Positions 31 to 17,158 of a stretch of 23,078 nucleotides of DNA are shown here, piece by piece. The stretch covers positions 1 to 23,078 of IMG/VR virus record IMGVR_UViG_3300033141_000942; one strand, written 5' to 3'. Made by a program: the position numbers and the translations under genes. The notes beneath the pieces were generated by a model. It was given only the letters and a program-made list of their open reading frames with translations, was not told where the DNA came from and ran no database searches. The stretch comes from a virus. Numbering within the stretch: position 1 is the stretch's first letter; each line of letters begins with the position of its first letter.

Positions 31-237
31 ATGTTTAGTATAATTGTAGTATTCTTCACAAAGTTCATGGTTTTATATAGGATGGCTAAGGTATTAAGAA
101 AGGGTTATAGTACTCTATGTAAAGTATATTCATCTGACATGAGAGCAACCCTTAAATCAGCCGTCGATAATCCTAATGAGACTTGGGATGATAAACTTAT
201 GTATTACATGGATAAGATATTTAAGCATAGTGTATGA
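31..237 (+). CDS. Small membrane-anchored phage protein, unknown function
   Basis: A 68-residue protein I do not recognise. Residues 1-18 are strongly hydrophobic (MFSIIVVFFTKFMVLYRM) and could be one membrane helix or an uncleaved anchor. A basic stretch follows (about 19-32), then an acidic tail with NPNETWDD at about 48-55. Short, single-helix proteins with acidic tails occur among phage lysis and membrane proteins, but nothing here identifies it as a holin or spanin. The start is supported by AGGAG at 20-24, six bases before the ATG. Its TGA stop overlaps the next ATG (ATGA), so it is probably translationally coupled to the glycosyltransferase. It is likely a real gene, because coding continues without a gap into the cassette. 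Confidence 0.65.
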   Translation: MFSIIVVFFTKFMVLYRMAKVLRKGYSTLCKVYSSDMRATLKSAVDNPNETWDDKLMYYMDKIFKHSV

Positions 238-1223
238 TAGCTTCTAACAAAATGAAGAAACTATCAGTCATCATAAGTAATAGAAATGACACAGTAATGC
301 TTGCTATAACTGTTAGGTCTTGCATTGAAGCACTTAAACCTCTAGGACTTGACAACTGTGAAATTATCATAGTTGACAACTCAGACCTTCCAATCTACAA
401 AAGTCTTAATAGCTTCATTCCACCTGGCTACATCAAAGATGGATTAGTAAAAGTATATCGTCAAGACTTCCCTTGCCTTTTCACTGCACGTGAGACGGGA
501 GCAGAGAAAGCTGAAGGTGAGTTCATTATTTGTGTAGACTCCCATATGTTAATAGGCCACAATATGTTTGTTGACCTAGTTAGTTTTATGATTAAACGAT
601 CTGATGATCCAACAATAGGATTCGCTCATGCACCTATCAACTGGGTACATCAACATGAGCGTGCTTCTAGACATGATCGGGATATGAGTGTTAATGAATT
701 AGGTGATTGGGGAACTGCTTACAACCATGAAAGAACTATCACTTGGAAAGGAATGCCTTGGATATGTCGTCGAGATTGGTTCCTTGACAAAGATAAAGGT
801 CTAAATGCTTATGGAGCATTAACTGAACATAAAGTAAGTTGGGGTGGAGGCGACATGCATATAGGTATCAAACCTTGGCTTCTTGGTTTTAAGAACTGGG
901 CAGTCCCTACAAATCCCGCTATTCACATAGGCCCTTTTCCAAAGGAAAGTAATAAAGTATCCAGTGATAAATACCGCCTTTATGCTGCAAGTGGAAGCTT
1001 CCCTCACACCTTTGGATTCCTTGTAAGTTGCTACGTTCTTGGTGGTGAAGCTATGATGAATCGCAATAAGGCAGCAATAACTAACCGATTCGGCAAATAC
1101 ATAGATGTTAACAAGTGGTGGGGCAAGGCTATTGAACTTGGCCAAAGTGAACGTGATTGGCTTAGTAAAAGACAAATAATGACCTTTGAAGAACTACTTA
1201 AAGCAAAACCTTGGAATAACTAA
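234..1223 (+). CDS. GT-A glycosyltransferase, polypeptide GalNAc-transferase (GT27)-like
   Basis: A 329-residue nucleotide-sugar glycosyltransferase of GT-A fold, expected to act in the cytoplasm. Seen: the opening strand VIISNRND (12-19), IIIVDNSD (44-51), TARETGAEKAEGEF leading into the metal motif D102-S-H104, the acceptor-loop motif WGGGD (203-207), and a distal histidine H231 six residues after a proline (PTNPAIH). Polypeptide GalNAc-transferases share the same order: R..GA..A.G, DSH, WGGEN and PCSRVGH, with the last His binding metal. The usual Glu of WGGE is Gly here. It overlaps the upstream stop (ATGA) and the downstream start (TAATG). No Shine-Dalgarno is visible, so starts at 234 or at the internal ATG 252 (MKKLSV) are both possible. 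Known: the fold transfers sugars from UDP donors. Inferred: the acceptor, possibly a virion protein. A generic GT2 enzyme is the alternative. Confidence 0.82.
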   Translation: MIASNKMKKLSVIISNRNDTVMLAITVRSCIEALKPLGLDNCEIIIVDNSDLPIYKSLNSFIPPGYIKDGLVKVYRQDFPCLFTARETGAEKAEGEFIICVDSHMLIGHNMFVDLVSFMIKRSDDPTIGFAHAPINWVHQHERASRHDRDMSVNELGDWGTAYNHERTITWKGMPWICRRDWFLDKDKGLNAYGALTEHKVSWGGGDMHIGIKPWLLGFKNWAVPTNPAIHIGPFPKESNKVSSDKYRLYAASGSFPHTFGFLVSCYVLGGEAMMNRNKAAITNRFGKYIDVNKWWGKAIELGQSERDWLSKRQIMTFEELLKAKPWNN

Positions 1224-1696
1224 TGAATACTGTCGAAGATTTATATAAAGAATGGCCCTTTCGTATACGTTACTTATGTAGAGAATGTTGGAATAGGATA
1301 GAAGAATACATAAATAAATACAAGATTACTTCAGTCCTTGAATTTGGCTCTGGGTTGTCAACTATTTTATTCAACAATATGGGACTTGATGTAGTATCAT
1401 ATGAAACTGATCCTGTATATCTTAGACTTATAAAGAGATACAACCTTGCTAATGTAGAGTTTCGTCTTTGGGACAATGTCACGGCTAATGTAGAAGGCCA
1501 CTTTGGAATATCTTTGGTAGATGGAATTTTACCTAGGGTAAATCAATTATACTATGTACAGAAACATTCACGTTATATAGTTATAGATGACTTCAATGAT
1601 GGTAATTCAAGTGTAGGTTTAGTTCCTATGCTTAAAGGTTACACACGGTTAGATGATAAATCAACAAGACTGGCAATATTTAGGATGATTAAATAA
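1223..1696 (+). CDS. Class I SAM-dependent methyltransferase-like protein
   Basis: A 157-residue protein with a Rossmann-type SAM-binding start: VLEFGSGLST (38-47, motif I) and, about 14 residues later, a strand ending in YETDP (60-64) with an acidic residue (E61) placed to hold the ribose hydroxyls. A later strand, IVIDDFND (about 118-125), resembles the acidic motif of small O-methyltransferases. It is short for a methyltransferase (usually 200 or more residues), so it is either a minimal form or binds SAM without catalysis. TAATG overlaps on both sides place it in one translational unit with two glycosyltransferases. That context suggests it modifies a sugar or glycoprotein made by its neighbours. 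The acceptor cannot be read from the sequence. Confidence 0.68.
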   Translation: MNTVEDLYKEWPFRIRYLCRECWNRIEEYINKYKITSVLEFGSGLSTILFNNMGLDVVSYETDPVYLRLIKRYNLANVEFRLWDNVTANVEGHFGISLVDGILPRVNQLYYVQKHSRYIVIDDFNDGNSSVGLVPMLKGYTRLDDKSTRLAIFRMIK

Positions 1697-3348
1697 TGGT
1701 ACCTCAAATTACAGTCTCTATTGTATCTTGGTTATTAGAGGGTAGATTAATAAAGACCCTATCTGAAATACCTAAGTCAACTGATCTTCCTTTAAATCTT
1801 TGTCTTCAAGTCCAGGGATGTGATCAAATATCTAAAGATAGAGCTAAGGAAATTGTAGATGTTGCTTCTTCTAACTTTGTAAACTCCGATGTATTTTTTA
1901 CTGCAGGGAACAGATATATAGCAAAGACTAGAGCCAGTATTTTTAAGAGGTCAGCTAGGACACCTTTTATTTTTATGACAGACAATGATATGGTCTTTCA
2001 AGAACATACTATAGATATACTATATAACTTTCTATCTAATAAATCTAATAGTGAATATGGACTGGTTGATACAATATACAATAAACGAAAGTATCACAGA
2101 ACTGTAGATGGAACGAAAGTTATCTGTACTCCCATAACCTTTGGACATTTAAAATTTGTAGATGTTAATTTAATAGGTGGTGGCTCAATGCTTATAAGGT
2201 CTGAGGTAGCTACTATTCCTAATATAATAGACACAAGATATGATTTAGGGACTTGGGATTTTGACCTTTGCATGAATGTGAGAAAAGCTGGATGGAAGAT
2301 AGCTTCATTAAGTGATGGAAATTATGTAGCTTTAAATGATCATTCTTATAGAACAGAAGAATACAAAAAAGGAAGAGTCCCTCTTGGACTTAGATCTTTT
2401 GGAGCCAGATTATTTGAAAGTAAATGGGGATTTTCTTCTGAGTATTATCCAGAGAGCCCAAAGATAGTAAAAAGAAAAACTCCAATAAACACTGATTCTT
2501 TTATTATATCTAGAGCAATCTATACTTCCATTGGAGAAGATTTGGGAGTAGGTATTCTAAGTGAGCGTCGTCTAGAATTAATGCAGCGGTATTTCATAGG
2601 TAGTTTACGTAATCAGACTGATCCAAACTTTACTTTATATCTTTTTACAGGCCCATCAGATAATGAAGCAACTTCCAGGATTAAGTCACTTGATTATGGC
2701 AATCTTGATGTGAAATTTATCTCCATTAATGATGATTTATCAAAGTGGAAAAAGTCTGTAGATGAATCAAGAAATTGGGGAAGGGAAATAGATGAAGGAA
2801 GTCCAGAGGCTCTTGTACGTAATTATGGACATCCTAAAGCTACAATCATGGCTCGTGTTGATATAGATGATTGGGTAGCACCTGGTTGGATTGCACACAT
2901 GAAACATATGGCAATCGCTAAACCAGAATCTCACTTTCTCATTAATTATCAAGTTGTTGGTCAGGGTCCTGATGGTCGCCTTTATAAATTCTTTGCTCCC
3001 CACAATAGAGGTAGATCAAGTCCATTTCTTGCTTTGGTACAGAAGGAAGAACCACGGATTAGTCCTTATGAAGATGTGCATTTAAACATGGGAAAACTAT
3101 TTGCCTATGTATATAACATACAACCTTCCTATGTCTTCATGGTAGTTCATGAAGGAAATAGGAGTAACAGAGTTTACAAGTTAGACAGATACTTTGAGGA
3201 CATCGAGGAAAAATTAGAATTAAGGAATCAAGCATTAGTGAAGACGAAAATAGAGCCAATAAAGGTAGTAAAGCAGATACCTAAATTGATCTCAATAAAA
3301 AAACCTATCCGAGGATCTAATTGGCGAGCAAGAATGGTTAATGGATAA
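1696..3348 (+). CDS. Two-domain glycosyltransferase (GT2 plus rhamnosyltransferase-like)
   Basis: A 550-residue protein with two apparent glycosyltransferase domains. Domain 1 (about 1-240) has a GT-A start (ITVSIVSW), the metal motif T-D95-to-D98 region (MTDNDMVF), GGGSMLIRSE (161-170), GTWDFDLCMNVRKAGWK (185-201), which fits the 'ED.DL..R....G' acceptor motif, and a late His (NDH, 214-216). Domain 2 (about 267-480) begins SRAIYTSIGEDLG, continues RYFIGSLRNQTDPNFTLYLFTG, and has ARVDIDDW (387-394). This resembles the putative rhamnosyltransferase family (PF11316). The C-terminus is Lys-rich and probably disordered. It begins with a TAATG overlap. Its TAA shares its last A with the first repeated dyad element, so the cassette ends there. 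Likely role: adding two sugars in succession to a phage or host acceptor. Domain 2 is the less certain assignment. Confidence 0.78.
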   Translation: MVPQITVSIVSWLLEGRLIKTLSEIPKSTDLPLNLCLQVQGCDQISKDRAKEIVDVASSNFVNSDVFFTAGNRYIAKTRASIFKRSARTPFIFMTDNDMVFQEHTIDILYNFLSNKSNSEYGLVDTIYNKRKYHRTVDGTKVICTPITFGHLKFVDVNLIGGGSMLIRSEVATIPNIIDTRYDLGTWDFDLCMNVRKAGWKIASLSDGNYVALNDHSYRTEEYKKGRVPLGLRSFGARLFESKWGFSSEYYPESPKIVKRKTPINTDSFIISRAIYTSIGEDLGVGILSERRLELMQRYFIGSLRNQTDPNFTLYLFTGPSDNEATSRIKSLDYGNLDVKFISINDDLSKWKKSVDESRNWGREIDEGSPEALVRNYGHPKATIMARVDIDDWVAPGWIAHMKHMAIAKPESHFLINYQVVGQGPDGRLYKFFAPHNRGRSSPFLALVQKEEPRISPYEDVHLNMGKLFAYVYNIQPSYVFMVVHEGNRSNRVYKLDRYFEDIEEKLELRNQALVKTKIEPIKVVKQIPKLISIKKPIRGSNWRARMVNG

Positions 3349-3384: not shown

Positions 3385-5466
3385 ATGAAAAGACTAATTA
3401 TATTACTATTCATATCATTGTCACTATTTGCTACCAATGCAAATGCAGATTTCTTTTCAGATGTGATAGTAACTTCGCCTGATGGTATCTGGACGGACTC
3501 TCGTGCATATGCAACTTTAAATGATGCAATAACTGCAGTAGGCGCTAATGATCGTGAAATAGTAATTGTCAATGAACAGGCAGTTACTACATTAACAGTA
3601 CCTTCTAATGTAAGATTGAAGTTCCTTCGGGACGGGTCTATTAACAACTCAGGACAACTAACTATTAATACAAAGAACATATCTGCAGATAACAGACAAA
3701 TCTTCACTGGTACTGGGGACATAGACTTTGCTAATGGTTCGGTACTTCGATCTGCTTGGTTTTCACAGGCCAGTACAGCTATCAATACAACAACTGATGA
3801 CATCATTACTTTAATAATATCCAAACAGACAAGTGTCTGGCATTCTTGCACTGTTGGCAATAATGTAATCTTAAAGTGGGAATCCCCTAATAACATACTA
3901 ACTGTACGTTCTGGAGTAGTAGTCTCCAACATTAAGAATATAGAAGCCGGAAACTATCAACTCTTTGGTGGGCCTGGAGACTTTGACTTCCTTGACGGGA
4001 CTAGACTTAAACTCGATTGGTTTGTCAGACTCCGTTCTGTGGTTACCTGGATTGAGAGTGAAAAAGTTACTTTGGAGATCTCAGATAATAATACAGTAAG
4101 TTATGATAATACTATCCCTAGTAATCTATCACTTAGGATGTTTAATGGTGGATCTCTTAGTATTGATATAGGTAGAACAATTACTTCTAATGGTTCATTA
4201 GAGATCAATCCAGGAGCTATCATTGATGGTGCAGGGACACTTACAATCAATGGGCCTTTTGAGGCTGGCTTATCACAATGTTTTGGGACGAGTATTGATA
4301 TAGATTTTGGGGATGGTGTAAACAATGCTTACTCCCAATGGTTTGGCACAAGAGTTGACGCTACAACTGACTTTACAATTCCTATCCAACGTGCCCTGGA
4401 CTCTAAAACTCAAAAACTAACAGTAAAGCTACTAGGATTAAGTTATAAAACAACTGATACAATAACAGTTTCTGGAAGTTATAAAGTATTAGATTTGGAA
4501 GGTGGTAGTATTACTTCATACGTTACAGATAAAGCGGCTGTTGAAATAAAACCTGCTGCTGGAATTACACGTTACAGTGGAGTTAAAAATGGAAGTTTAT
4601 TAGGTGATGAGGCTACTGGTAATGCAACAATAGGTTTAAAAATTAGTGGTGCTGCATGGTTTGCACAAACAGAAAACCTTATCATTAAATATTTTGGTCT
4701 TGGTGCTGCTGGTGGATATGGATTCTATATAATTGGTGCAGGTGCTACTAATACTCCATATTTCGGCAACCATAAAAACATTAATGCAGATCAAAATTAC
4801 ATAGGTTTTTATGCAGCGGGTCAAGATATAGCGTTTGTATTAACAACAAATCACTTTGAAGGTTGCTACGCTTCCACTAATGATTCTGATGGATTCCTAT
4901 TTAGGTATTGTACTGGAAATACTCTCACAAACATAATAGCAGAAAGTAATGTAGGGGCTGGTATTCATCTTGATTATACACATGGTATGTATGCTAATGG
5001 AGGTTTTATTGAGGGTAATACTCCTAATTTATTGGTAGAAAACATAGACTCAACAAAATTACCTAATATTTTATTATTCTCTGGCTATCAAGCAGTAGCC
5101 ACAGCAGCTACCTATGATAATCGACCAGATGTGGATATTTCTGGTAGTTTTAATATTAGAAAAATGTCTACACCAATTATAACAATAAGTAGTGGAGATA
5201 TAATTACATTAAAAAATGCACCAAATAAAGTAATTATAGCAGAGCGTTATGGAGCATATGCAGAGGTCTTGTTATCATGGGATGGTGCTGTAACTTGGAC
5301 AGTAGAATATTTAGTAAAAGGTGGAATTAATACAGCATGGTGGACAGTCACTAAAGATACAGCAACTAGTTTTAATATATATTATGATGCTGGTAGCAGT
5401 TCATTTAAACTTCAATCCACAAGAAACGCAATACTATCAATTCAGCAATTAGGCGCAGGAAGTTAG
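3385..5466 (+). CDS. Tailspike-like right-handed beta-helix protein with signal peptide
   Basis: A 693-residue protein. Residues 1-21 form a clear Sec signal peptide (MKRLI, hydrophobic core, ANA before DFF). Residues 71-126, 155-213 and 244-320 are three diverged copies of one module, each running 'NVRL.F..G', a strand pair, 'F.G.GDIDF', and ending in a Trp-Phe. After the third comes WFGTRVDATTDFTIPIQRALDS, the classic opening of phage tailspike and pectate-lyase-like helices. Beta-helix rungs follow to about residue 560 (TGLKISG, GFYIIGAG, IGFYAAG, GAGIHLDY), then a beta-rich C-terminal domain. Role by family: binding or cutting host surface polysaccharide. No catalytic residues can be assigned. 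GGAG sits before the ATG, just after dyad copy 1. The export signal is odd for a virion protein assembled in the cytoplasm. A secreted depolymerase is the alternative. Confidence 0.8.
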   Translation: MKRLIILLFISLSLFATNANADFFSDVIVTSPDGIWTDSRAYATLNDAITAVGANDREIVIVNEQAVTTLTVPSNVRLKFLRDGSINNSGQLTINTKNISADNRQIFTGTGDIDFANGSVLRSAWFSQASTAINTTTDDIITLIISKQTSVWHSCTVGNNVILKWESPNNILTVRSGVVVSNIKNIEAGNYQLFGGPGDFDFLDGTRLKLDWFVRLRSVVTWIESEKVTLEISDNNTVSYDNTIPSNLSLRMFNGGSLSIDIGRTITSNGSLEINPGAIIDGAGTLTINGPFEAGLSQCFGTSIDIDFGDGVNNAYSQWFGTRVDATTDFTIPIQRALDSKTQKLTVKLLGLSYKTTDTITVSGSYKVLDLEGGSITSYVTDKAAVEIKPAAGITRYSGVKNGSLLGDEATGNATIGLKISGAAWFAQTENLIIKYFGLGAAGGYGFYIIGAGATNTPYFGNHKNINADQNYIGFYAAGQDIAFVLTTNHFEGCYASTNDSDGFLFRYCTGNTLTNIIAESNVGAGIHLDYTHGMYANGGFIEGNTPNLLVENIDSTKLPNILLFSGYQAVATAATYDNRPDVDISGSFNIRKMSTPIITISSGDIITLKNAPNKVIIAERYGAYAEVLLSWDGAVTWTVEYLVKGGINTAWWTVTKDTATSFNIYYDAGSSSFKLQSTRNAILSIQQLGAGS
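3595..4344 (+). repeat. Three diverged protein modules ending in WF inside the tailspike-like gene
   Basis: Coding repeats of about 56, 59 and 77 residues (protein positions 71-126, 155-213, 244-320). Shared landmarks are NVRL/NVIL/NLSL near the start, a 'GTGDIDF' or 'GPGDFDF' or 'SIDIDF' strand, and a closing WF. The similarity is at protein level; the DNA has diverged, so this is an old duplication. Confidence 0.6.
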
Positions 5467-5520
5467 TGGACTCTCAATTACCTAAAATACTTTCATAATG
5501 AAAAAATATCTATCAATATT

Positions 5521-5526
5521 AAGGAG
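5521..5526 (+). promoter_or_regulatory. Ribosome binding site fixing the GTG start of terL
   Basis: AAGGAG lies eight bases before a GTG codon at 5535. No in-frame ATG precedes the Walker A region at a better distance, so the terminase most likely starts with GTG. Confidence 0.8.
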
Positions 5527-5534
5527 CCTTATTT

Positions 5535-7079
5535 GTGGATAAGGAAACCCAACAAATACAATCTCTATGCTCAATCAGTACTCGAATGACTGCTCAAACA
5601 TTCTTCCCTGAGCGATTCTATGTACCTTTCGCTGACAATATACATGGAAAGATATTTAATCTCATAGATGGCCCTGATCAAAAAGTTGCCATTGCAGCTC
5701 CTCGTGGTTGGGGAAAGACAAGTATAGTTGCACTTGCACTTATGGCTAGGTACATATTATATCATCACACTGGATTCATCTGTTACATAAATAAGTCCCA
5801 TGATGCTGCATCACTTCAGACCGAAAACTTACGACGTGAACTTGTTAGCAATAGAATGATCAGACACTTCTTCGGTGATTTTAAATCAAGGGATGTAAAG
5901 AAAAATGAGTTTGAAGAAGTCTTCAGCAAAAAAGCTTGGGTTGCTTATGATACTCTAGTCTGGCCTCGTGGGGCTGGCCAACAAGTTCGTGGTGTTCTAT
6001 TTAAGAATGATCGACCAGGCCTGATCGTAATAGATGACTTAGAAGACCCTGAAAGAATCAAGAATGATGAGATACGTAAAGGGTGGTATGAGTGGCTATA
6101 TGCTGATGTTATTAAAGCATTACCTAGAGTAGGTGACATGGCTAAGAAATGTAAAATAGTCTACATTGACACACTTAAGCATGAGGACTCTGTCCTTCAA
6201 AAACTACTCACTTCTAATGAATGGAAGTCAATTCGTCTTGAGGCCTGTGATGATGACTTTCATTCTACTGCTCCTGCCTTTATGTCAGATGAAGACATAA
6301 TGAAGGAGTGGGAGGAACATCAAGCAAGTGGTCAAACTGATGTGTTCTTTCGTGAGTTACGTAATCTTCCGATTTCAACTAAGGATTCAGCATTTCAGAC
6401 CCAGTACTTTCATTATTACAACTTACCATCTGACAAGACTGTTGGTGAACTTGACCTTAAAAAGATCGACGTTGACATTCAGCAAGATAGAAACATCGAA
6501 ACTGTAGTAATTCTTGACCCTGCTAAGACTGTCAAGATTCACTCTGCTGAAAGTGCTATTATAGGAATAGGGATTGATCTTACATCTGCTAAAATCTACA
6601 TTAGGGATATAGTCTCAAAGAAGATGTATCCAGATGAAATCTACGATGAACTCTTTGGTATGGGTATACGATTAGGTGCAAAAGTATTAGGGATTGAGGA
6701 GACTTCCCTAAATGAGTTTATCAGACAACCTATCAAAAATGAGATGTTTAGACGTGGAACGTTCTTTGAACTTATCTGGTTAAAAGCCAGAGGTGGGATG
6801 AAGAAGGAGCTTCGTATTAAGGAACTTGTACCTTATTATCGAGGTAGTTATATCTATCACAATGCTTCATGTGTTAATGTTAAGAAGTTAGAACAACAAC
6901 TTCTAATGTTTCCTCGTTCTGCTCTTTGGGATATAATGGATGCTGAGGCTTACATCATTGAGATGCTTGAGTTAGGCGAACGATACTTTAGTCCAAATGA
7001 TAATCCAGATGATATTGAATCTGAGTATAAAGAGCTTGAATATGATGAGCCTGTTGAAAACTGGAGGGTTGCAGTATGA
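5535..7079 (+). CDS. terL: Terminase large subunit (packaging ATPase and nuclease)
   Basis: A 514-residue DNA-packaging motor that uses ATP to drive the genome into the prohead and cuts concatemers. The ATPase domain has Walker A APRGWGKT (55-62), Walker B LIVIDDLED (163-171, D167/D168, E170) and a coupling motif VYIDTLKHEDS (209-219). The nuclease domain has acidic residues in ILDPAKT (D328), GIEET (E388/E389) and WDIMDAEAY (D466/D469), the RNase H-like three-cluster arrangement. Length is normal for the family. It starts with GTG behind AAGGAG. Its TGA overlaps the next ATG (ATGA). Unusually, the gene before it is a tailspike-like gene and no small terminase subunit is seen next to it. Identification is secure; the packaging type (cos, pac or direct repeats) cannot be told from this. 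Confidence 0.96.
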   Translation: MDKETQQIQSLCSISTRMTAQTFFPERFYVPFADNIHGKIFNLIDGPDQKVAIAAPRGWGKTSIVALALMARYILYHHTGFICYINKSHDAASLQTENLRRELVSNRMIRHFFGDFKSRDVKKNEFEEVFSKKAWVAYDTLVWPRGAGQQVRGVLFKNDRPGLIVIDDLEDPERIKNDEIRKGWYEWLYADVIKALPRVGDMAKKCKIVYIDTLKHEDSVLQKLLTSNEWKSIRLEACDDDFHSTAPAFMSDEDIMKEWEEHQASGQTDVFFRELRNLPISTKDSAFQTQYFHYYNLPSDKTVGELDLKKIDVDIQQDRNIETVVILDPAKTVKIHSAESAIIGIGIDLTSAKIYIRDIVSKKMYPDEIYDELFGMGIRLGAKVLGIEETSLNEFIRQPIKNEMFRRGTFFELIWLKARGGMKKELRIKELVPYYRGSYIYHNASCVNVKKLEQQLLMFPRSALWDIMDAEAYIIEMLELGERYFSPNDNPDDIESEYKELEYDEPVENWRVAV

Positions 7080-7264
7080 TTGACTGGAAAGAACTACTAG
7101 CTCCAATAGCATTGCCTTTAGCTTGGATGGGATCACTTGAATGGAGATTACGTTCAAAGGTCAGTGACAAAAGATTTGATGATTACAAGGGGTATATTAA
7201 AGAAAGATTTGATGGTCAGAAAAAGCAACTTGATAGAATTGAAAATCACTTAAATGATAAATAA
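7076..7264 (+). CDS. Small protein with N-terminal hydrophobic segment and coiled coil
   Basis: A 62-residue protein with no family I can name. Residues 6-21 (ELLAPIALPLAWMGSL) are hydrophobic but broken by two prolines. Residues 27-60 are highly charged with heptad-like spacing (FDDYKGYIKERFDGQKKQLDRIENHL), a likely coiled coil. Small hydrophobic-plus-coiled-coil proteins near phage terminases or lysis genes are common, and XhlA-like proteins have a similar charged segment but with the membrane helix at the other end. It overlaps terL by ATGA and is probably coupled to it. Its stop codon TAA shares its last base with dyad copy 2. Confidence 0.6.
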   Translation: MIDWKELLAPIALPLAWMGSLEWRLRSKVSDKRFDDYKGYIKERFDGQKKQLDRIENHLNDK

Positions 7265-7288
7265 GATTGTTTAAATTTTAAACAATCT
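7264..7288 (+). promoter_or_regulatory. Repeated 25-bp dyad element, copy 2 (perfect palindrome)
   Basis: The most symmetrical of two perfect copies: AGATTGTTTAAA, one central T, then TTTAAACAATCT, 12 bp on each side without mismatch. It begins on the last A of the upstream TAA and ends 14 bases before the next ATG, just ahead of the GGAGG. Together with copy 3 it brackets the block 7303-11616. Confidence 0.75.
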
Positions 7289-7302
7289 GATGGAGGCTTT
7301 AA

Positions 7303-7599
7303 ATGCAATTAATACAATCACTAGACAGAACACCCTTTGATCATGAGGAGATCAACATAGCAACCGATGCTGTTTCAAGGCTTGACGAAACTCTCCGTGG
7401 ATCTTATGGAATTGCTTTCATTACAATAGAAGATTCAAATATTAGATATTGGATAGATGGTACTGATCCAGATGCAGATAGTGGACATATGGTCTATAAT
7501 GGAGGGAATATCTATTTTGTTGACCCTAAATCAGTGAGAAGTCTTCGAATGATAGCTATTACCAATCCAGCAGTTGCTATGATAACTTACTATAAATGA
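7303..7599 (+). CDS. Small phage virion-type beta protein, unknown role
   Basis: A 98-residue protein. The pattern AFITIEDSNIRYWIDGTDP, a Gly-His turn (G61-H62), MVYNGGNIYF and a final strand AMITYYK resembles a small all-beta protein found in many phage structural regions, often beside fibre genes and usually left as hypothetical. This is recalled from general knowledge and not searched. It starts behind GGAGG (7292-7296) directly after dyad copy 2. Its TGA overlaps the ATG at 7596, and GAGG within that overlap serves the next gene. Likely a decoration, fibre-tip or adaptor protein; no enzymatic motif is seen. Confidence 0.6.
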   Translation: MQLIQSLDRTPFDHEEINIATDAVSRLDETLRGSYGIAFITIEDSNIRYWIDGTDPDADSGHMVYNGGNIYFVDPKSVRSLRMIAITNPAVAMITYYK

Positions 7600-7601
7600 G
7601 G
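7598..7601 (+). promoter_or_regulatory. Ribosome binding site favouring the start at 7608
   Basis: GAGG overlaps the upstream TGA stop. ATG codons occur at 7596, 7605 and 7608; only 7608 has a normal six-base spacer, and it gives a signal peptide beginning MKR. Confidence 0.55.
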
Positions 7602-7607
7602 AATATG

Positions 7608-9152
7608 ATGAAAAGGATATTTAGTTATATAACATTGTTAGTTATCTTACTTTTTCCTATATCTATCTCTGCTAGACCTATTAGTGGAGGGCCTATAGGT
7701 CTAGGCGTGGGTGGGGGTGGTGGAACTGCGACCCAGGTCAATGATGCTCTTGGGGATTTGTATGATACAGCTGCGGAATTGACGGCTTTATTCGGTACAA
7801 AGCAAGATCTTGACGCTCAACTGACAGCCCTGTCTCTTTTTACTGTCTCAGAAATATCACAACTCGCAAACATCGGTGCCACCACTATTTCCGCTGCTCA
7901 ATGGACAGGTCTTGGTGGTGCTACGACAGCAGGTATAGCCTTATGGGATGATGCAGCAGCTGTTAATCAGAGAACTACTTTAGGGCTTATTATTGGGACA
8001 GATGTTCAAGCTCAAGATGATGAACTCACTGACATTGCAGGACTTACCTTTGCAGACGATAAAATTATTTTGGGTACTGGGGCAGGTACTATCGCCATGG
8101 CAGATTGCACAGCTTTTGCTCAATCAATCCTTGACGATGCAGACGAAGCCACATTTAAGGCTACGGTGAATCTTGAGGCTGGCACGGACTTTCAAGCAGT
8201 CGTCACCGAAGGATCATTGACCGATTCTGTAATCGTATCCGCAGATATTAAAAACGGCACAATAGCCTCTGTTGATTGTGTTACTGCCCTTAGAATCATA
8301 TCTCAAACCTCTAATGCTCTTGGCGATAATGGTGAACTGGTTTTCACGGCAGGCTATGACAGGGTATATGTTGACCTGTCTGTAACAGTGGATGATGCCG
8401 ATATAGACATAGATGAAGGTGGGAGCGAGGTAGATGGTGCTTTGGTTATCATTACAAATCAAGCTGCGAATACTGCCCGTTTTGCTGATGAAGCTGGAGA
8501 GGTAGAATTAGCAGCTCCTGTTATCCTTGAGCAATATGAAACCCTTACTCTTCAATACGCAACGGATAGATGGGTAGAGGTGGGTAGAGCGACCAATGCT
8601 CTAGGATTTTCAACTATAACCACTACAGAAACCGAGTACATCCCTATCTCATATATGATAGACGGTGCAAGTGCTCCCGATGCTTTGGAAACCATCACTT
8701 CAGACACAGACAAAGTTAATGTGCGAACCTTTCAACCTGCTGCGGATGAAGATGTTTTATTTGAGTGGATGATGCCTGAAGATATTGACGCATCCTCTGG
8801 TATTAAGTTTAGCATTGTGTTCTATCCAACCAATGCTACGGGCCCAAATTCTGAGGTTGTCCAATTTGAATTAGCAGGATTTAGTTTGGGAAGTGGTGAT
8901 GCTCTCAATGGTACATTGGGCAGCGTTCAGACATCCACGTTAGCCTCGAGCTCGCATGCTCAATATGATAGAATTGTTACTGCATGGTCGGCTGCAATGA
9001 CCTCAACACATATTACTGATCTATCTGTAGATGGTGAAACCATTATCTTCAAACTAAATAGAGACAGTGGAGTTGGGAGTGATTACGAGCAATTAGTGGG
9101 TGTGTCTGGAATAAAACTTAAATACAAACGACTCCATGATGCAACATTCTAA
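7608..9152 (+). CDS. Tail-fibre-like protein with signal peptide
   Basis: A 514-residue protein from the ATG at 7608 (518 from 7596). A signal peptide covers about 1-22 (MKRIFSYITLLVILLFPISISA). A glycine run (GVGGGGG) comes next, then fibre-like segments typical of phage adhesins: QVNDALGDLYDTAAEL, GLIIGTDVQAQDDELTDIAGL, and a second related segment, ATFKATVNLEAGTDFQAV. The C-terminal third (about 335-514) is an acidic all-beta domain (EYIPISYMIDGASAP, VLFEWMMPEDID, IIFKLNRDSG) resembling C-terminal domains of environmental phage structural proteins. Likely role: receptor or glycan binding. It overlaps the 98-aa gene and is followed by a lectin-like gene nine bases later. Base composition becomes richer in G+C soon after the start, which could mean the fibre part was acquired by recombination. 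The export signal is unexpected for a tail fibre. Confidence 0.72.
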   Translation: MKRIFSYITLLVILLFPISISARPISGGPIGLGVGGGGGTATQVNDALGDLYDTAAELTALFGTKQDLDAQLTALSLFTVSEISQLANIGATTISAAQWTGLGGATTAGIALWDDAAAVNQRTTLGLIIGTDVQAQDDELTDIAGLTFADDKIILGTGAGTIAMADCTAFAQSILDDADEATFKATVNLEAGTDFQAVVTEGSLTDSVIVSADIKNGTIASVDCVTALRIISQTSNALGDNGELVFTAGYDRVYVDLSVTVDDADIDIDEGGSEVDGALVIITNQAANTARFADEAGEVELAAPVILEQYETLTLQYATDRWVEVGRATNALGFSTITTTETEYIPISYMIDGASAPDALETITSDTDKVNVRTFQPAADEDVLFEWMMPEDIDASSGIKFSIVFYPTNATGPNSEVVQFELAGFSLGSGDALNGTLGSVQTSTLASSSHAQYDRIVTAWSAAMTSTHITDLSVDGETIIFKLNRDSGVGSDYEQLVGVSGIKLKYKRLHDATF

Positions 9153-9161
9153 GGTGAAAAT

Positions 9162-9881
9162 ATGAAGCGATTACTTTTAATTATACTTTCAATCTTCTTC
9201 CTTGCAAGCATTGTCTGTGCCAAAGGTGTCTATTACTATGCTGGGGAGACGGTAACGGGTGCTGTTGGCTGGTCATGCCCTGGCACAAACAGTGATATTC
9301 TTTGCGATGATTTCGATGGTGGTGCTGATCTTGTTTGGTCAGAAACCGAAACTAATGGCACAATAACCTTTCAAAATGATCGGATGGAGATTATTGCAAC
9401 AGGGGCAGCATGTTGGGCATCTACCGATTATGGTAGTGCTATTACAACTCACTATACCAGTTTCAAATTTACTTTAGTTTCTGAAAGTCTTGGTAGTGGT
9501 GGTGATGATTTTATTGCCCATGCTTCTGTAATAAATGGTGACGGCACTCCCGCCTGGTCTTGTCGAATAATAGAGGATGCTTCAAATCAACACGCAATGC
9601 AATTTAGGCATCTTGATGATGCTTGTAGTGGCTGGATTTCGACAACTTCGGCTTACGATTTGGCATTAAGCACAGAATATACAATAAAAATAGCATATAC
9701 CCACGCCTCAGTGTCTTACTATGTTTATGGTAACAGTGATAATGGATTAATAGGCACATCTAATGATGTATGTGACCGTGATCCTCAATATTGGTTGTTT
9801 GGAGAAGATAGTAATGATGCAGCAATAACCTTTTATATAGATGGGTTTCAAACAGATGATGACACTATGCCGACTTATTAA
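9162..9881 (+). CDS. Secreted lectin-like (concanavalin A-type) protein
   Basis: A 239-residue protein with a strong signal peptide (MKRLLLIILSIFFLASIVCA, cut before KGV). The Cys there is preceded by Val and does not make a good lipobox. The mature part begins with a short linker, then a jelly-roll pattern: ILCDDFDGGADLVW, MEIIATGAAC, TSFKFTLVSESLGSGGDDF, a Trp-rich middle, YTIKIAYTH and a closing ITFYIDGFQTDDD. This is the strand order of LamG/concanavalin A-like sugar-binding domains. Six cysteines in the mature part fit export to an oxidising compartment. AAGGTGA sits five bases before the ATG. It overlaps the next gene by 26 bases. Likely role: binding glycans outside the cytoplasm, either on the virion or released. 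No catalytic glutamates of a glucanase stand out. Confidence 0.68.
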   Translation: MKRLLLIILSIFFLASIVCAKGVYYYAGETVTGAVGWSCPGTNSDILCDDFDGGADLVWSETETNGTITFQNDRMEIIATGAACWASTDYGSAITTHYTSFKFTLVSESLGSGGDDFIAHASVINGDGTPAWSCRIIEDASNQHAMQFRHLDDACSGWISTTSAYDLALSTEYTIKIAYTHASVSYYVYGNSDNGLIGTSNDVCDRDPQYWLFGEDSNDAAITFYIDGFQTDDDTMPTY

Positions 9882-11616
9882 ATTCTTATTTGTATTTCTT
9901 TTATTTACTACTCCTGCGTGGGGAGCTGATTTTACAGTCTGTAACGCCGGCTGTGACGAAACAACCATTCAGGCGGTGTTTAATAACAATGACTTAGCTC
10001 CTGGTGATGTAGTAGAAGTACGGGCCGATACCCCTGGAGGAAGCAAAACGTATTCTGAAATGGTAGAGCCTGGGTCAAACGATGTGGGAGATGCTGGGAG
10101 TCAACTTACCCTTCAAGCTCGTTCAGGAGATACGATCACAATTGATGGAGGAAATTCCAGAGCACACGGAATAGTCCTCAGTGGCAGATCATACTTCACT
10201 TTAGACGGATTTCATTTTGATAACTGTACGGCCCAGGTGGTGTACGTTGCGACTGCCGCCACAGGTGTTATTCTCCAAAACTTAACCATAGTCCAGGACT
10301 TGAATGCTGCTTCTGATACTTGTGATGGAATTACGTTTATTGAGCAGACTAATAGTGTTATTGATAACTGCGATATTAGGCACAGTGCCGAGGTCAACTG
10401 CGTATATGCAGCCGATAGCATCAAGGTCACTGGAGGCTCTGGTAATACGGTTAAATATTGTTACCTCGAACATAAGAGCACTAACACAGACCGCCACAAT
10501 GACGGTATTCAGATGTGGAATGATACCGATTTCACTGTCTATGGCAATGAGATCAATCACGCAATCAGTGGTGGCAGAATGCAGGGAATCTATATGGAGG
10601 GAGTAGGTGTTGGCAATTATGGAACATGGTTATGCTATAATAATCTGTTATACGGTGCAACATGGCAATCTTCCGCTATTAGATTACGCCCCAAAGATGC
10701 TACTGCCATTGTCAGATGTTACAACAATACCTCTATTGTTATTGATTCATCAGGACAAGCCGCTTTCATGGAAGGGTCTGATGGTGGTGCCGATAATACA
10801 ACAATGTATGCGTATAACAATGTATTTATTCACTTGAATGCTGGAAATATTTCTCAGCCTGTAACGTATGCCGATGGAGTAAATCCTGGAAATGTAGATA
10901 ATAATTGTTACTATAGGGCAGGACACTCAGCTACAACTTATGGTGGTAGTGATATAAATACAGACCCTTCTTTAGACGCCAGTTACTATCCCGATGATTC
11001 AGGTGATCCTGTGGTAGATACAGGAAAAGATTTGAGTGGAACCTTTACAATCGACAAAGATCAAGTATCCCGCCCTCAAAGTACAGATTTTGATATGGGT
11101 TGCTATGAATATACTGGTACAGCAGCCCCTACAGGCACACTTGTTGTTGCAGGGGGAATTGTTGAGAGCGACGTTGTAACTGGTGCAAAAACACTTGTCC
11201 TTACCTTAGATGGCACGACATGGGATGCAGATATAGGCACTACTGGGGCTGAACAAACTGCTTTAATAGCAGGGATAACATCGAACAAAGCAGAGGCAGG
11301 AGGATGGAATACAATAGTCAGGGATGATTATGGAGTTGGATGGACTGACACTGGAGCCGAAGTAGTAAGAAATAGCGATACGGTATTAACAATTACGCTC
11401 CCTGCATTTGCAGCCTACGAAATTACTGCATCGGAAACCATAACTGTTACCATAGCTTCAACCTGTGTAGCAAGTGCAACAGAGATAGTGGCAGACCCAC
11501 CATTTATTATCTCGGTTGACACCTTGCCTGATGTAACTGGTGTAGGGTGGTATTTTACAGCAGGGGGACAAGCAGCAACTAAAACCACGGGTGGATTAGC
11601 AATAACATCACCATAA
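9856..11616 (+). CDS. Signal-peptide-bearing beta-helix protein with C-terminal Ig-like domain
   Basis: About 586 residues from the ATG at 9856; ATGs at 9841 and 9859 are also possible and none has a good ribosome binding site, so coupling to the upstream gene is likely. The signal peptide is LIKFLFVFLLFTTPAWG before ADF. The body has right-handed beta-helix rungs (ITIDGGNSRAHGIVLSG, YFTLDGFHFDNCT, GVILQNLTI, NSVIDNCDIRH, NTVKYCYLEH, DGIQMWNDTDFTVYGNEI, AIVRCYNNTSIV, TMYAYNNVFI). The helix ends in FDMGCYEY, the 'DIGAYEY'-type close seen in bacterial secreted beta-helix proteins. An Ig-like domain follows (GAKTLVLTLDGTTWDADI, SDTVLTITLPAFAAYEITASETITVTI). It looks like a bacterial surface-polysaccharide protein fused to a phage-type beta domain. 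Role: probably polysaccharide binding or cleavage; no active site was identified. Confidence 0.74.
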   Translation: MMTLCRLIKFLFVFLLFTTPAWGADFTVCNAGCDETTIQAVFNNNDLAPGDVVEVRADTPGGSKTYSEMVEPGSNDVGDAGSQLTLQARSGDTITIDGGNSRAHGIVLSGRSYFTLDGFHFDNCTAQVVYVATAATGVILQNLTIVQDLNAASDTCDGITFIEQTNSVIDNCDIRHSAEVNCVYAADSIKVTGGSGNTVKYCYLEHKSTNTDRHNDGIQMWNDTDFTVYGNEINHAISGGRMQGIYMEGVGVGNYGTWLCYNNLLYGATWQSSAIRLRPKDATAIVRCYNNTSIVIDSSGQAAFMEGSDGGADNTTMYAYNNVFIHLNAGNISQPVTYADGVNPGNVDNNCYYRAGHSATTYGGSDINTDPSLDASYYPDDSGDPVVDTGKDLSGTFTIDKDQVSRPQSTDFDMGCYEYTGTAAPTGTLVVAGGIVESDVVTGAKTLVLTLDGTTWDADIGTTGAEQTALIAGITSNKAEAGGWNTIVRDDYGVGWTDTGAEVVRNSDTVLTITLPAFAAYEITASETITVTIASTCVASATEIVADPPFIISVDTLPDVTGVGWYFTAGGQAATKTTGGLAITSP

Positions 11617-11723: not shown

Positions 11724-12407
11724 ATGAATACAATAGTATCAAAGACTAAAGAAGCAAAAGATCTGATAAGAGAATCTGTTGCAAAGTGGGAAGATGAAAT
11801 AGGCATATTCTGTTCCTTTGGTAAAGATAGCATGGTAGCACTTCATCTTGCTCTTCAAATAAATCCAGATATTAAAGTAATATCTGTGATGACTAGATTC
11901 AAGCCAAAGGAAACATTTGAGTACTTAGCTAGGATACAGAGAGATTGGAAGATAAACTTAGAAGTATTCACTTCTCATGAAAAGGTTCCAGATGATCTTC
12001 CTTTGACCGACCCTGATGAGTGTTGTAGGATTAACAAAGAGGAACCTACAAAGGAAGCCTTGCATGACTTTGCAGCTTGGATTACTGGACTTCGTAGAAC
12101 GGAAGGTAGAACAAGAACTGACTTCAGATATGTTGAGGAAACTTCCCGTGAGTACTTAGATGAGAAAGGGATTATAACAAAGATCAATCCAATTCTTGAT
12201 TGGTATGAAGTTGATATTTGGAAGTATATAGCTATTCACCAAATCCCAGTTCATCCTTGGTATGCCCAAGGATATAGAAGTCTTGGCTGTGAGCCTTGTT
12301 CACATCTTGTAAATGATAATGAAACAGAACGTGCAGGTAGATGGCTTGATACAAGTAAATGTGGTGGTGAGTGTGGAATACATACTATGGCTAAAAGGAA
12401 TATGTAA
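11724..12407 (+). CDS. cysH: CysH-type adenylyl-sulfate / phosphoadenylyl-sulfate reductase
   Basis: A 227-residue enzyme of assimilatory sulfate reduction that reduces APS or PAPS to sulfite in the cytoplasm. Seen: the PP-loop variant SFGKDS (31-36), ECCRINKEEP (99-108) with the Cys pair C100-C101, ITGLRRTEGRTRTDF (120-134), NPILDWYEVDIWKYI (155-169), GCEPC (188-192), ERAGRW (202-207) and the catalytic tail ECGIH (216-220, C217). The CC plus CxxC arrangement is the [4Fe-4S] ligand set of APS-type reductases, so APS is the likelier substrate. All key residues are present and the length is near normal, so it should be active. It is preceded by dyad copy 3 and AGAGGA and overlaps the next gene by TAATG. 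Known: cysH is a recurrent phage auxiliary metabolic gene. DndC, a relative used in DNA phosphorothioation, lacks the ECG(I/L)H tail and fits less well. Confidence 0.92.
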   Translation: MNTIVSKTKEAKDLIRESVAKWEDEIGIFCSFGKDSMVALHLALQINPDIKVISVMTRFKPKETFEYLARIQRDWKINLEVFTSHEKVPDDLPLTDPDECCRINKEEPTKEALHDFAAWITGLRRTEGRTRTDFRYVEETSREYLDEKGIITKINPILDWYEVDIWKYIAIHQIPVHPWYAQGYRSLGCEPCSHLVNDNETERAGRWLDTSKCGGECGIHTMAKRNM

Positions 12408-12670
12408 TGAAGTGGAGAAAGATAAGGATATGGATCTTAGCATGTCAAGGAATAGTTTATAGATGTTTTATAATATGCTGTAATACCACCTTCTTCTTGA
12501 TAGGGATTAGATCTATGTCAAATATATTTGGTGAAGTATCTTTTACCAATGCTCTGAAATATGCTTTTGGAGTTAGCTTAACATGGAATGTTATTAACAC
12601 TGTTTTATATTTTCTATTCCATTATATCTATGCTAGAATGTATAAGTTAGGGACAAACAATGGCAACTAA
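12407..12670 (+). CDS. Two-helix membrane protein, DUF2061-like
   Basis: An 87-residue protein with a basic start (MKWRKIRIW) and two hydrophobic helices, about 19-36 and 49-72. The order IVYRC..I..NTTFFLIG, an ALKYA segment and NTVLYFLFHYIYARMYKLG matches the plan of DUF2061 proteins ('WR...T', small central loop, 'K..LYY.HE.W'), though the final HE-W is only partly kept (FHYIYARMY). DUF2061 domains are known beside or fused to sulfate-activation genes, which supports the match because this gene starts on the stop of cysH (TAATG). Possible role: helping sulfate or sulfite handling at the membrane; this is inference from neighbourhood. It overlaps the following fibre gene by 11 bases. Confidence 0.66.
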   Translation: MKWRKIRIWILACQGIVYRCFIICCNTTFFLIGIRSMSNIFGEVSFTNALKYAFGVSLTWNVINTVLYFLFHYIYARMYKLGTNNGN

Positions 12671-13571
12671 AACTATCAGAATAGGAAGTGCAGAGAACAT
12701 TATTCAGTATGATTCTGGTGACTATGATTCTGGTATTGAGTGTGACGCTCCAATAAAGGCTGATACCCCAGTTGATCCAACTGATGTGATTAGACTTGAA
12801 GATCTTACAGGTAGATTACTTAACCCTACATCAGTTGTAAACATAGCTAATCCAACCGAACTTAATTCAATAGCTGGAGTTCTTGGGGCAATGATTCTTG
12901 CGTATCAAATTGTAGGTGCTGGTGGATTAAATGTAGTCACACTCTATGTTTATGATGCTAGTGGACCTGCAGTTAATTCCCCCTACATAGTAGACGCTGA
13001 TGGAGCTGGGAGTGAAAGATGGATAGCAGTGGCTGGAAGATATGCTGTCCAAAGTCTTAGTTTACTCGGCAATATAATACTAACAGGTAATATTACTATA
13101 AATGGAGATCTTGAATTTGGTATAGCTGGAAAAGGTCTATCTTTTGGTTCCTGTTCTGGCTATCATATAAATTGGACACAAGCTGCGGTGCAAAATACTT
13201 GGTATAACGTCTCAGATGTAGACTTTATAGATGGTCAACTGAATCAAATATCTCATGATGGAAGTGGAAAATTGACTGTAGCTAATACTGGAAAGTACTT
13301 ATGTAATCTATCCCTTGATTGGGAAGTCGATGGAGCTAATAAACATATAGAAGTAGGTTTTGAGGTAGATAATAGTGGATCTGCAGAAACTGAAGGTATA
13401 GTTTGTAATGAGACTAAATTTGCTAATGAAGAATCTATAGCATCTACAACTGCTATTTTAGATCTATCTGCTGGAGACACTTTAGAAATATGTGTAAGAA
13501 CTACAGAAATTGGAAATCCTACAATCACTGTGGATTGTGTAAGTCTAAACTGTATTCAGATAGGTGGATGA
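12660..13571 (+). CDS. Phage fibre-type structural protein with C1q/TNF-like C-terminus
   Basis: A 303-residue protein without a signal peptide. The N-terminal part contains PVDPTDVIRLEDLTG (36-50), a phrase common in phage fibre proteins, followed by a beta-rich middle and a short repeating stretch (ILTGNITINGDLEFG). The last 140 or so residues follow the C1q/TNF jelly-roll order: HINWTQAAVQNTWYNVSDVDF, KLTVANTGKYLCNLSLDWEV, KHIEVGFEVDN, ASTTAILDLSAGDTLEICVRTTE, and the closing ITVDCVSLNCIQIGG. Such ends make trimers on fibres. A 12-base direct repeat (TATGATTCTGGT at 12708 and 12723) encodes YDSGDYDSG. TTAGGGA precedes the ATG, and the start lies inside the membrane-protein gene. Likely a trimeric head or tail fibre; the receptor is unknown. 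Confidence 0.72.
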   Translation: MATKTIRIGSAENIIQYDSGDYDSGIECDAPIKADTPVDPTDVIRLEDLTGRLLNPTSVVNIANPTELNSIAGVLGAMILAYQIVGAGGLNVVTLYVYDASGPAVNSPYIVDADGAGSERWIAVAGRYAVQSLSLLGNIILTGNITINGDLEFGIAGKGLSFGSCSGYHINWTQAAVQNTWYNVSDVDFIDGQLNQISHDGSGKLTVANTGKYLCNLSLDWEVDGANKHIEVGFEVDNSGSAETEGIVCNETKFANEESIASTTAILDLSAGDTLEICVRTTEIGNPTITVDCVSLNCIQIGG

Positions 13572-16309: not shown

Positions 16310-17158
16310 ATGGACGAACATCTTAAACAGATTCAAAAGGACGTAGATGATATGAATAAGACTCTTGAAGGTCAGGTAGTTACTACTGCTCCTGGGACTG
16401 AGGTACCTAAAACTCAGGCTCCAGGAACTAATGCTCCAGGAACAGATACACCTGGCACTGATGCTCCTAAAACGGATGCCCCTAAAACAGAAGTACCATC
16501 TACAGAAGTACCTACAACTGAAGCTCCTGAGGAGAATTTTGAGGATAGACTTACGAAGGAAAATGAGGCTTTACGTAAACGAATAGAGGAAATGTCAGGA
16601 GGGCACACTAAGGCACCTGGAACGTCAGCTCCTAAAACTGCTGCACCAGGTACTGAACCGCCTATTAGTGAGTATGATTTTCTTGGTAATAAAGACTTGG
16701 ATGAACTGACAAGGGATCCTAAAGAGTTTAATAAACTACTCAATGAGATCTATGCCAAAGCTGTAAAGGATACCAAGGGAACTATGACTGAGGGAGTTCT
16801 TCGATCTATACCTGATATAGTGAAAACTAATGTACTTGCAGTTACTGAATTGAAGAAAGCCAGTGATCAATTCTACAAAGATAATGAGGATCTAGCTCCA
16901 TTTAAGAAAGTTGTAGGTATTGTATTTGAAGAACTAGCTGCCTCAAGTCCAGATAAAAAGTATAGTGAAATTCTTAATGAAGTTGCAACTGAGGCACGTA
17001 ATAGATTAGAACTCCACAGGAAAACAATTAAGGATGATAAGAACAAACATCCAAATTTGCCTAATAAAAGAAATCAACAAAGGCAAACACAAACTAAACC
17101 CAATCTCACTGGAATAGAAAAAGAGATTGATGCAATGAACGAAACACTTAATCAATAA
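16310..17158 (+). CDS. Capsid scaffold protein with mucin-like APxT repeats
   Basis: A 282-residue acidic protein just upstream of the capsid gene, likely guiding capsid assembly. Residues 1-22 form a charged helix (LKQIQKDVDDMNKTLEG). Residues 27-76 are ten tandem pentapeptides of the form (A/V/T)P-x-T-(D/E/N/Q), the last one imperfect. About 77-96 is a coiled coil (EDRLTKENEALRKRIEEM). Residues 102-116 add three more pentapeptides. About 125-240 is helical (FLGNKDLDELTRDPKEF and onward). A basic, Gln/Asn-rich linker (about 240-264) leads to the last helix, LTGIEKEIDAMNETLNQ (266-282), typical of scaffold C-termini. That last helix resembles the first one (8 of 15 identical). The repeats are unusual for a scaffold, which is normally removed from the mature head. 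If this is instead a retained head protein, the repeats could be exposed on the surface. Confidence 0.76.
   Translation: MDEHLKQIQKDVDDMNKTLEGQVVTTAPGTEVPKTQAPGTNAPGTDTPGTDAPKTDAPKTEVPSTEVPTTEAPEENFEDRLTKENEALRKRIEEMSGGHTKAPGTSAPKTAAPGTEPPISEYDFLGNKDLDELTRDPKEFNKLLNEIYAKAVKDTKGTMTEGVLRSIPDIVKTNVLAVTELKKASDQFYKDNEDLAPFKKVVGIVFEELAASSPDKKYSEILNEVATEARNRLELHRKTIKDDKNKHPNLPNKRNQQRQTQTKPNLTGIEKEIDAMNETLNQ
16388..16537 (+). repeat. Ten tandem APxT-type pentapeptide codon repeats
   Basis: Fifteen-base units coding for (A/V/T)P(G/K/S/T)T(D/E/N/Q), ten in a row with the last unit imperfect (APEEN). Codon choice varies between units (gct/gca/gcc, cct/cca), so the array is old or selected at protein level. 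Every Thr has Pro three residues downstream in the next unit. Confidence 0.85.
16613..16657 (+). repeat. Second block of three APxT pentapeptide repeats
   Basis: Three more units (APGTS, APKTA, APGTE), separated from the first array by a coiled-coil segment of about 25 residues in the same protein. Confidence 0.8.

Follow-up and report, generated by a model that had tools for sequence, protein, structure and literature searches.

How proteins resembling the tail fibres and tailspikes of phages could function if the host cell exports them is the question raised by a 23,078 base virus fragment from an uncultured phage (IMG/VR record IMGVR_UViG_3300033141_000942), the whole of which was analyzed here and is referred to as the window. 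Four of its genes, designated by their start positions 3385, 7605, 9162, and 9856, code for a spike-like, a fibre-like, a small lectin-like and a beta-helix protein, respectively, and a first-pass annotation of this DNA had proposed that each of them begins with a Sec signal peptide. Proteins with such N-termini are referred to below as tagged. Our results indicate that the four signal peptides are real and that the signal of the spike is conserved in its close relatives. We regard it as an evenly poised proposition that these proteins are glycan-active or glycan-binding, are exported by the Sec pathway and act upon the envelope or matrix of the host, and that they are not standard virion spikes.

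The N-termini were evaluated by means of a home-made scorer of the n, h, and c regions, which rates how basic the start is, the hydrophobic core and the site of cleavage. Genes of E. coli K-12, whose classes we assigned with the aid of annotation, were used for its calibration. At a score of at least 5, 12/13 exported proteins, 1/73 cytosolic proteins, 6/28 inner-membrane proteins and 2/4 lipoproteins from this organism pass. The four proteins score between 6.0 and 7.3 (Table 1), and all of the remaining 21 genes in the window score below 3. A score of at least 5 was reached by 1/90 spurious open reading frames (ORFs), i.e., about 1%, and by 39/10150 shuffled N-termini. When the N-terminus of each protein was shuffled 2000 times, the native score was reached three times each for 7605 and 9856 and not at all for 3385 and 9162. 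In keeping with what is expected of substrates for Sec and signal peptidase I, all four proteins possess a basic n-region, a hydrophobic core and small residues at positions -3/-1, and their mature parts contain no further transmembrane segments. The proposed signal peptides are thus upheld by their scores, by the low chance rate and by the low values for the other genes. Signals of this short length (about 21 residues) suit a host with two membranes. A cysteine is absent at position +1 of the predicted cut in all four proteins, and in the absence of a lipobox their identity as lipoproteins is ruled out. Disulfide content, which was considered as a marker for export, proved uninformative, the cysteine content being 0.4–2.8% in the four proteins vs. 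2.3% in the untagged fibre 12660. Automatic flagging of 64 overlapping loci marked 91 of the 781 gene calls, with false positives among them.

The first-pass annotation had also raised the objection that the true starts could lie farther downstream. The best start for the spike is at 3385, with the sequence GGAG located 8 nucleotides 5′ of it, and that for the small lectin-like protein is at 9162. For the fibre-like protein, a start at 7605 or 7608 is better than that of the longer ORF from 7596, which lacks a Shine–Dalgarno motif, and for the beta-helix protein the start at 9856, with a match of only three bases, is preferable to that of the longer ORF from 9841, which has none. Within codons 6–60, no start with a Shine–Dalgarno match of at least 4 was found in the 3385, 9162, and 9856 genes, and in the 7605 gene the one such start is a GTG (codon 35) for which four bases match.

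Relatives of the spike were detected only when an alignment (A1) was used as the query. Scans of viral contigs with single proteins (3385, 9162, 9841, and the C-terminal part of 7605) revealed no relatives, and in tblastn searches against named phages no match was found for the N-terminal part of 3385 or for the 9162 and 9841 proteins. With the aligned N-termini of the spikes as query, 41 loci (denoted by L numbers) were retrieved, 35 of them strong matches, and one more locus was obtained from genome contigs. A signal-bearing start is present in all 36 of these close relatives (35 strong loci and the genome contig), several of which are contigs already seen, so that the distinct sequences are fewer than 36. 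The best-scoring start was used in this survey; an earlier in-frame start exists in L063, L070, and L074, and the tagged start in L070 is a GTG. The spike signal peptide, noted earlier in the window, is thus a conserved characteristic of its close relatives. A second alignment (A2) was built from 26 of the 36 members, those excluded being duplicates from a single contig, nearly identical sequences and proteins truncated at contig ends. All 26 score at least 5, and their mean pairwise identity is 33% in the signal region vs. 58% for residues 22–60. Because the sequence of the signal drifts while its properties are kept, this is the pattern expected of selection for export. None of the 26 genes has within codons 6–60 a start with a good Shine–Dalgarno motif, and an untagged form of the protein is therefore unlikely. 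The best cut residue before the conserved mature start is alanine in 25 cases and glycine in one, small residues being favored by the scorer. Six more remote proteins also contain the spike module. In four of them (L096, L099, L100, and L101), which are untagged, it lies 190–436 residues from the start, and the other two (L097 and L098) are tagged; the module thus occurs both ways.

A scan for relatives of the terminase identified 28 loci, giving 29 cases with the window included. On the 5′ side of the terminase, a tagged spike is present (adjacent or nearly so) in 13 of these cases, the sequence is ended by the contig edge in 12, and other genes are found in four (L005, L011, L012, and the remote L029). 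In a Mantel test upon 22 loci, distances for the N-terminal part of the spike were not significantly correlated with those for TerL (r = 0.12, a value reached in 669/5000 permutations), and the corresponding values were 0.23 (23/5000) for the signal region and -0.06 for the C-terminus; these results speak weakly against a tight coupling of the spike to the virus backbone. Two loci from these surveys are of separate interest. In L073 (6001–8567) the spike gene is split, with a tagged N-terminal ORF and the remainder in a later ORF, indicative of an insert, a frameshift or an assembly error. L102 (contig DHFP01000118.1 of a metagenome-assembled genome), which carries the spike and terminase of this clade, was binned with Clostridiales UBA4821, reflecting either a host link or misbinning.

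The 3385 protein itself has no Pfam or PHROG match, and after its signal peptide the N-terminus is a beta-helix-like part likewise without matches in these databases. An AlphaFold2 model of the protein (693 residues) predicts a beta-helix, confidently for approximately residues 57–400 and poorly from about residue 450. No PDB match at E ≤ 0.001 was found by Foldseek for the whole model, due to the badly predicted residues past about 450. When residues 312–510 were compared by VIA-align, the matches included a Bacteroides-type glycosyl hydrolase (Z 16.7), the tailspike of phage Fri1 (Z 16.2) and the mannuronan epimerase AlgE4 (Z 14.6). Among 26 relatives of the spike, Pfam matches were to Beta_helix (8), Pect-lyase (4), and NosD (4), and a few relatives match tail-spike PHROGs. 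Based upon the model and the Pfam matches of its relatives, 3385 is a pectate-lyase-like right-handed beta-helix close to tailspike depolymerases and epimerases, with a putative role in polysaccharide cleavage. Searches of PDB sequences with the four proteins yielded nothing useful (best E 0.24).

The 7605 protein contains a tail-fibre repeat, and its presence in the virion is putative. Its C-terminal domain is shared with a tagged protein of Caudoviricetes sp. vir555 (35% identity for query residues 356–512 by tblastn; 35.5% over 172 amino acids, E 2.7e-18, in a second comparison), and tagged fibres resembling it are present in L009, L082, L083, and L017. For 9162, which has no Pfam match, a single-sequence model of low confidence (predicted local distance difference test score of 42.6) gave a best Z of 6.5 with many lectins and glucanases among the matches, and on this weak model the protein probably has a concanavalin-like lectin fold; the L009 gene in the equivalent position codes for a Laminin_G_3 protein (E 3.6e-27). 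The C-terminal part of 9856 is common to a tagged protein in L004 (14814), with 41% identity over 160 amino acids. The folds suggested in the first-pass annotation thus hold for the beta-helix of 3385, the tail-fibre repeat of 7605 and the Beta_helix of 9856, and the lectin assignment for 9162 rests on a low-confidence model.

Table 1. Coordinates of the tagged proteins, the untagged fibre and the upstream genes in the window.
Feature	Position	Strand	Score	Details
Signal peptide of spike	3385..3447	+	7.3	21 codons; predicted cut between ANA and DFF
Mature right-handed beta-helix spike-like protein	3448..5466	+		N-terminal part conserved to about residue 340, C-terminal part variable (A2 alignment)
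Signal peptide of fibre-like protein	7605..7673 (start 7605 or 7608)	+	6.0	Predicted cut between SISA and RPISGG
Mature tail-fibre-repeat protein	7674..9152	+		phrog_24210, E 5.8e-7; phrog_36707, E 9.7e-5
Signal peptide of small lectin-like protein	9162..9221	+	6.9	Predicted cut between VCA and KG
Mature beta-sandwich protein, 6 Cys	9222..9881	+		Probably concanavalin-like, low-confidence model
Signal peptide of beta-helix protein	9856..9924	+	6.1	Likely cut between AWG and ADF (scorer chose two residues earlier)
Mature protein: right-handed beta-helix plus a beta domain at the C-terminus	9925..11616	+		Pfam Beta_helix, E 1.5e-7
Untagged fibre gene	12660..13571	+		Beside portal gene; internal control
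Glycosyltransferase genes 234 and 1696 and small gene 1223	234..3348	+		Immediately 5′ of spike

Fibres without signals provide the controls for these observations. The 12660 fibre is conserved, with an N-terminal motif of its own, and a signal peptide is present in 0/21 of its distinct relatives. The contrast drawn earlier between this fibre and the four tagged proteins is therefore real and general, and 12660 is likelier to be a virion adhesin. The accompanying remark that this phage does not follow such a rule in general is correct, but within the clade a signal is the rule for the spike upstream of the terminase. The tail-fibre repeat of 7605 was found in 28 other loci, where it is mostly untagged, the exceptions being L036 (score 7.2) and the pair L033/L034 (4.9), and in six named phages the corresponding tail fibres are all untagged (0/6). 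For phage SU10, 19 annotated genes from terminase to tail were scored (50 of 77 kb covered), with values of 6.0 for the holin and 4.7 for a “surface protein”, and below 0 for all others. The comparison of C-terminal modules between tagged and untagged proteins left out seven name patterns judged to be false positives (e.g., a glycosyltransferase and the M15 endolysins). Tagged proteins and untagged fibres alike may terminate in the motif AGGLxxGxLYxxGxDPD...VH, which is about 31 residues long; its approximate sites include L090:4138–4237, at the C-terminus of a spike, and L021:7380–7474.

The 25 genes called in the window are all on the + strand and closely spaced. The phage is an SU10-like podovirus, as indicated by the Pfam matches of its portal (gene 13584, SU10_portal, E 4.6e-18) and major capsid (gene 17651, SU10_MCP, E 1.7e-34) proteins. 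Its closest named phage by TerL is Desulfofustis phage LS06-2018-MD01 (OP947158; 46% identity), whose host was assigned via CRISPR spacers (PMC10370329). The four tagged genes form a single tight block with gaps of -26 to +107 nucleotides. Upstream of the spike lie the glycosyltransferase genes 234 and 1696 (234–1223 and 1696–3348; Pfam Glycos_transf_2, E 7e-11, and Rhamno_transf, E 8.5e-7), of which the 234 gene was matched by tblastn in 22 fetched loci and the 1696 gene in 19, some of these loci being overlapping pieces of one contig. Candidate acceptors for these two enzymes are a host glycan, the virion and the exported spike. In the relatives, two glycosyltransferase genes frequently adjoin the spike and the terminase follows, an M15-type endolysin is located 193 to about 6200 nucleotides upstream of the spike where both are present, and a small lipoprotein-like gene occurs near the spike in L004, L080, L090, and L091. 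With these neighbors, the region resembles a block for lysis and host interaction more than one for tail morphogenesis, despite the terminase being next to it. A PAPS-reductase-family gene (11724–12407; Pfam E 2.4e-42) lies between the tagged genes and the 12660 fibre, and no relative of it was found among the other fetched loci. The probable scaffold-region protein (16310–17158) contains Thr/Pro-rich repeats of the APGTEAPGT type, as do its counterparts in L008, L020, and L022. In L013 (7436–9541) and L022 (10778–12825), the major capsid gene is apparently interrupted just past its first codons by an ORF-bearing insert resembling an intron or homing element, and no known intron was detected in these inserts with Rfam.

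The order of genes in the window, viz. tagged fibre (7605), lectin-like protein (9162) and beta-helix protein (9856), recurs elsewhere. It is identical in L009, where a tagged fibre is followed by the Laminin_G_3 protein and a beta-helix protein (weak Pfam match). In vir555 (BK063671), which by its annotation has other head genes, a tagged fibre with a 7605-like C-terminus is followed by tagged proteins of 241 and 524 amino acids; neither of the latter has a Pfam match, and their labels as lectin and helix therefore rest upon gene order, size and our reading of the sequence. In L097 two tagged proteins, one of them a fibre, are encoded beside baseplate genes, and tagged fibres lie close to capsid, portal or endolysin genes in L033 and L036. 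Four consecutive genes in vir555 (38140–43157) score as signal-bearing, and the host field of this record reads Methanomicrobiales; if this methanogenic archaeal host is correct, such tags would function in archaea.

From the signal-like N-termini, their conservation, the fold types and the gene order, which the present analysis shows, we infer the following course of events. The four proteins would be made late, alongside the virion genes, carried by Sec to the periplasm with cleavage of their signals, and folded there, from where they could reach the cell surface and its surroundings either immediately or at lysis. Their beta-helix and lectin-like parts may then cleave, or attach to, glycans of the host envelope or the polysaccharide of its matrix. 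The possible benefit to the phage is that a path is cleared for the progeny and new virions are kept off the dying cell and its debris, and superinfection may also be blocked. Fibre and spike modules would thus carry a signal peptide in place of a virion-binding N-terminus, and the proteins would be absent from the virion. Export, periplasmic folding and action upon glycans before and at lysis fit the fold types, the gene block and the conserved tag. The presence of the spike tag in every close relative suggests that some phage “tail spikes” act outside the cell, not solely on the virus particle. Several observations weigh against this proposal. In a host with two membranes Sec alone ends at the periplasm, and no route across the outer membrane was found. 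A conserved N-terminal and a variable C-terminal part are also typical of an adhesin docked to the virion, and the C-terminal modules occur on untagged fibres as well as on the exported proteins. The spike is absent upstream of the terminase in 3/16 close relatives with sequence there (L005, L011, and L012), and our scorer lets some membrane proteins through (6/28 of those from the inner membrane).

Of the three options that the first-pass annotation had listed for exported proteins, action upon the host surface or its surroundings is favored by the comparative evidence, namely the tag in 36/36 relatives, the lack of an internal start (0/26) and the lysis and glycosyltransferase genes nearby in relatives. 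The third, that fibres join the virion after lysis, remains a rival that we consider somewhat unlikely. According to it, the proteins would be exported, processed, folded and trimerized in the periplasm and attached to virions at lysis, making them true adhesins assembled outside the cytoplasm. The tailspikes of phage P22 are able to join heads in lysates, the tagged genes sit among virion genes, one of them has a tail-fibre repeat, pieces of their C-termini also occur on untagged fibres, and tagged genes come after the tail genes in vir555 and L097, which is the usual position for fibres. Nevertheless, no docking domain was recognized in the mature N-terminus with Pfam or PHROG, though one of a new type may be present there, the same 3/16 absences of the spike count against such a role, and its N-terminal part does not follow the terminase phylogeny, though the terminase is not the docking partner.

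Retention of the proteins on the surface or in the periplasm of the infected cell, where they would block receptors and thereby exclude superinfecting phages or shield progeny from receptor debris, is modeled by the Llp protein of phage T5. Binding folds of the lectin and fibre types, whose C-terminal modules are shared, and expression with late genes in a single block are consistent with it, but the four proteins lack a lipobox or other surface anchor and no receptor-binding domain common to tagged and untagged fibres was found in the window, making it distinctly unlikely. In view of the inner-membrane proteins which pass our scorer, it could be supposed that the helix at the N-terminus stays uncleaved and anchors the protein in the membrane, or that it is a hydrophobic docking helix. 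This is quite improbable given the small residue preceding the mature start (in most of the aligned spikes, as the scorer favors), the short basic n-regions, the lengths of 15–27 and the mature parts devoid of transmembrane segments. Lastly, that the N-termini are hydrophobic by chance or that the starts are wrong, for which the weak Shine–Dalgarno motifs at 7605 and 9856 could be cited, is hardly credible, being nearly refuted by the chance rates of 1/90 and 39/10150 and the 36/36 conservation.

Fibre- and spike-like genes of phages are routinely called virion receptor-binding proteins and are used as such in host-range prediction and depolymerase discovery. If it is true that one class of them is exported, receptor-binding labels would be wrong for that class and phages could act in trans on capsule, matrix or receptors. 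A wider generalization, which is possible but against which we would lean, is that a toolkit of exported glycan-directed proteins has arisen repeatedly among tailed phages, in which fibre, lectin and beta-helix modules carry Sec signal peptides where virion-binding domains would otherwise be and are kept as a mobile cassette in unrelated phages. The phage would then edit the surface and matrix of its host from the outside while infection proceeds, independently of the virion. Exported phage endolysins with signal peptides and tailspike depolymerases are already known. In the open-licence literature, to which our search was confined (subscription journals being outside it), no description was found of phage fibres or spikes with signal peptides as a class, or of a recurrent cassette in which such proteins from tailed phages have conserved signals.

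Among known systems, tailspike depolymerases such as gp49 of Acinetobacter phage Fri1 (6c72, Z 16.2) share with 3385 the pectate-lyase-like beta-helix, a conserved N-terminal and a variable C-terminal part. Typical tailspikes begin with a virion-binding domain and have no signal peptide, whereas in 3385 the signal peptide occupies the position of that domain. The T5 Llp-like lipoproteins differ from the four proteins in possessing a lipobox cysteine. Desulfofustis phage LS06-2018-MD01 has SU10-like head genes and the same block order, but none of its tail-type genes is tagged and the sole gene flagged codes for a 195-aa lipoprotein-like protein. The genome of vir555 shares with the window a run of three tagged genes in identical order and differs in its head genes. 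The endolysin Lys44 of Oenococcus phage fOg44, which is reported to be exported by means of a Sec signal peptide and cleaved (PMC6116005), is likewise a late phage protein that uses the host Sec pathway, but it is an enzyme for cell-wall lysis and not a fibre or spike. A functional parallel is provided by WceF of Pantoea stewartii, a bacterial enzyme with a tailspike fold that is exported by the twin-arginine translocation (Tat) pathway and cuts exopolysaccharide outside the cytoplasm (PMC7949094). WceF resembles the spike in its tailspike-like right-handed beta-helix, its export signal and the location of its gene beside glycosyltransferases, and it differs in being part of a bacterial exopolysaccharide cluster, in its Tat signal and in that its activity and trimer have been shown, whereas the genes described here are from a phage, carry a Sec-type signal and have a putative function. 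WceF demonstrates that a protein of tailspike fold, if furnished with an export signal, is able to hydrolyze exopolysaccharide (PMC7949094).

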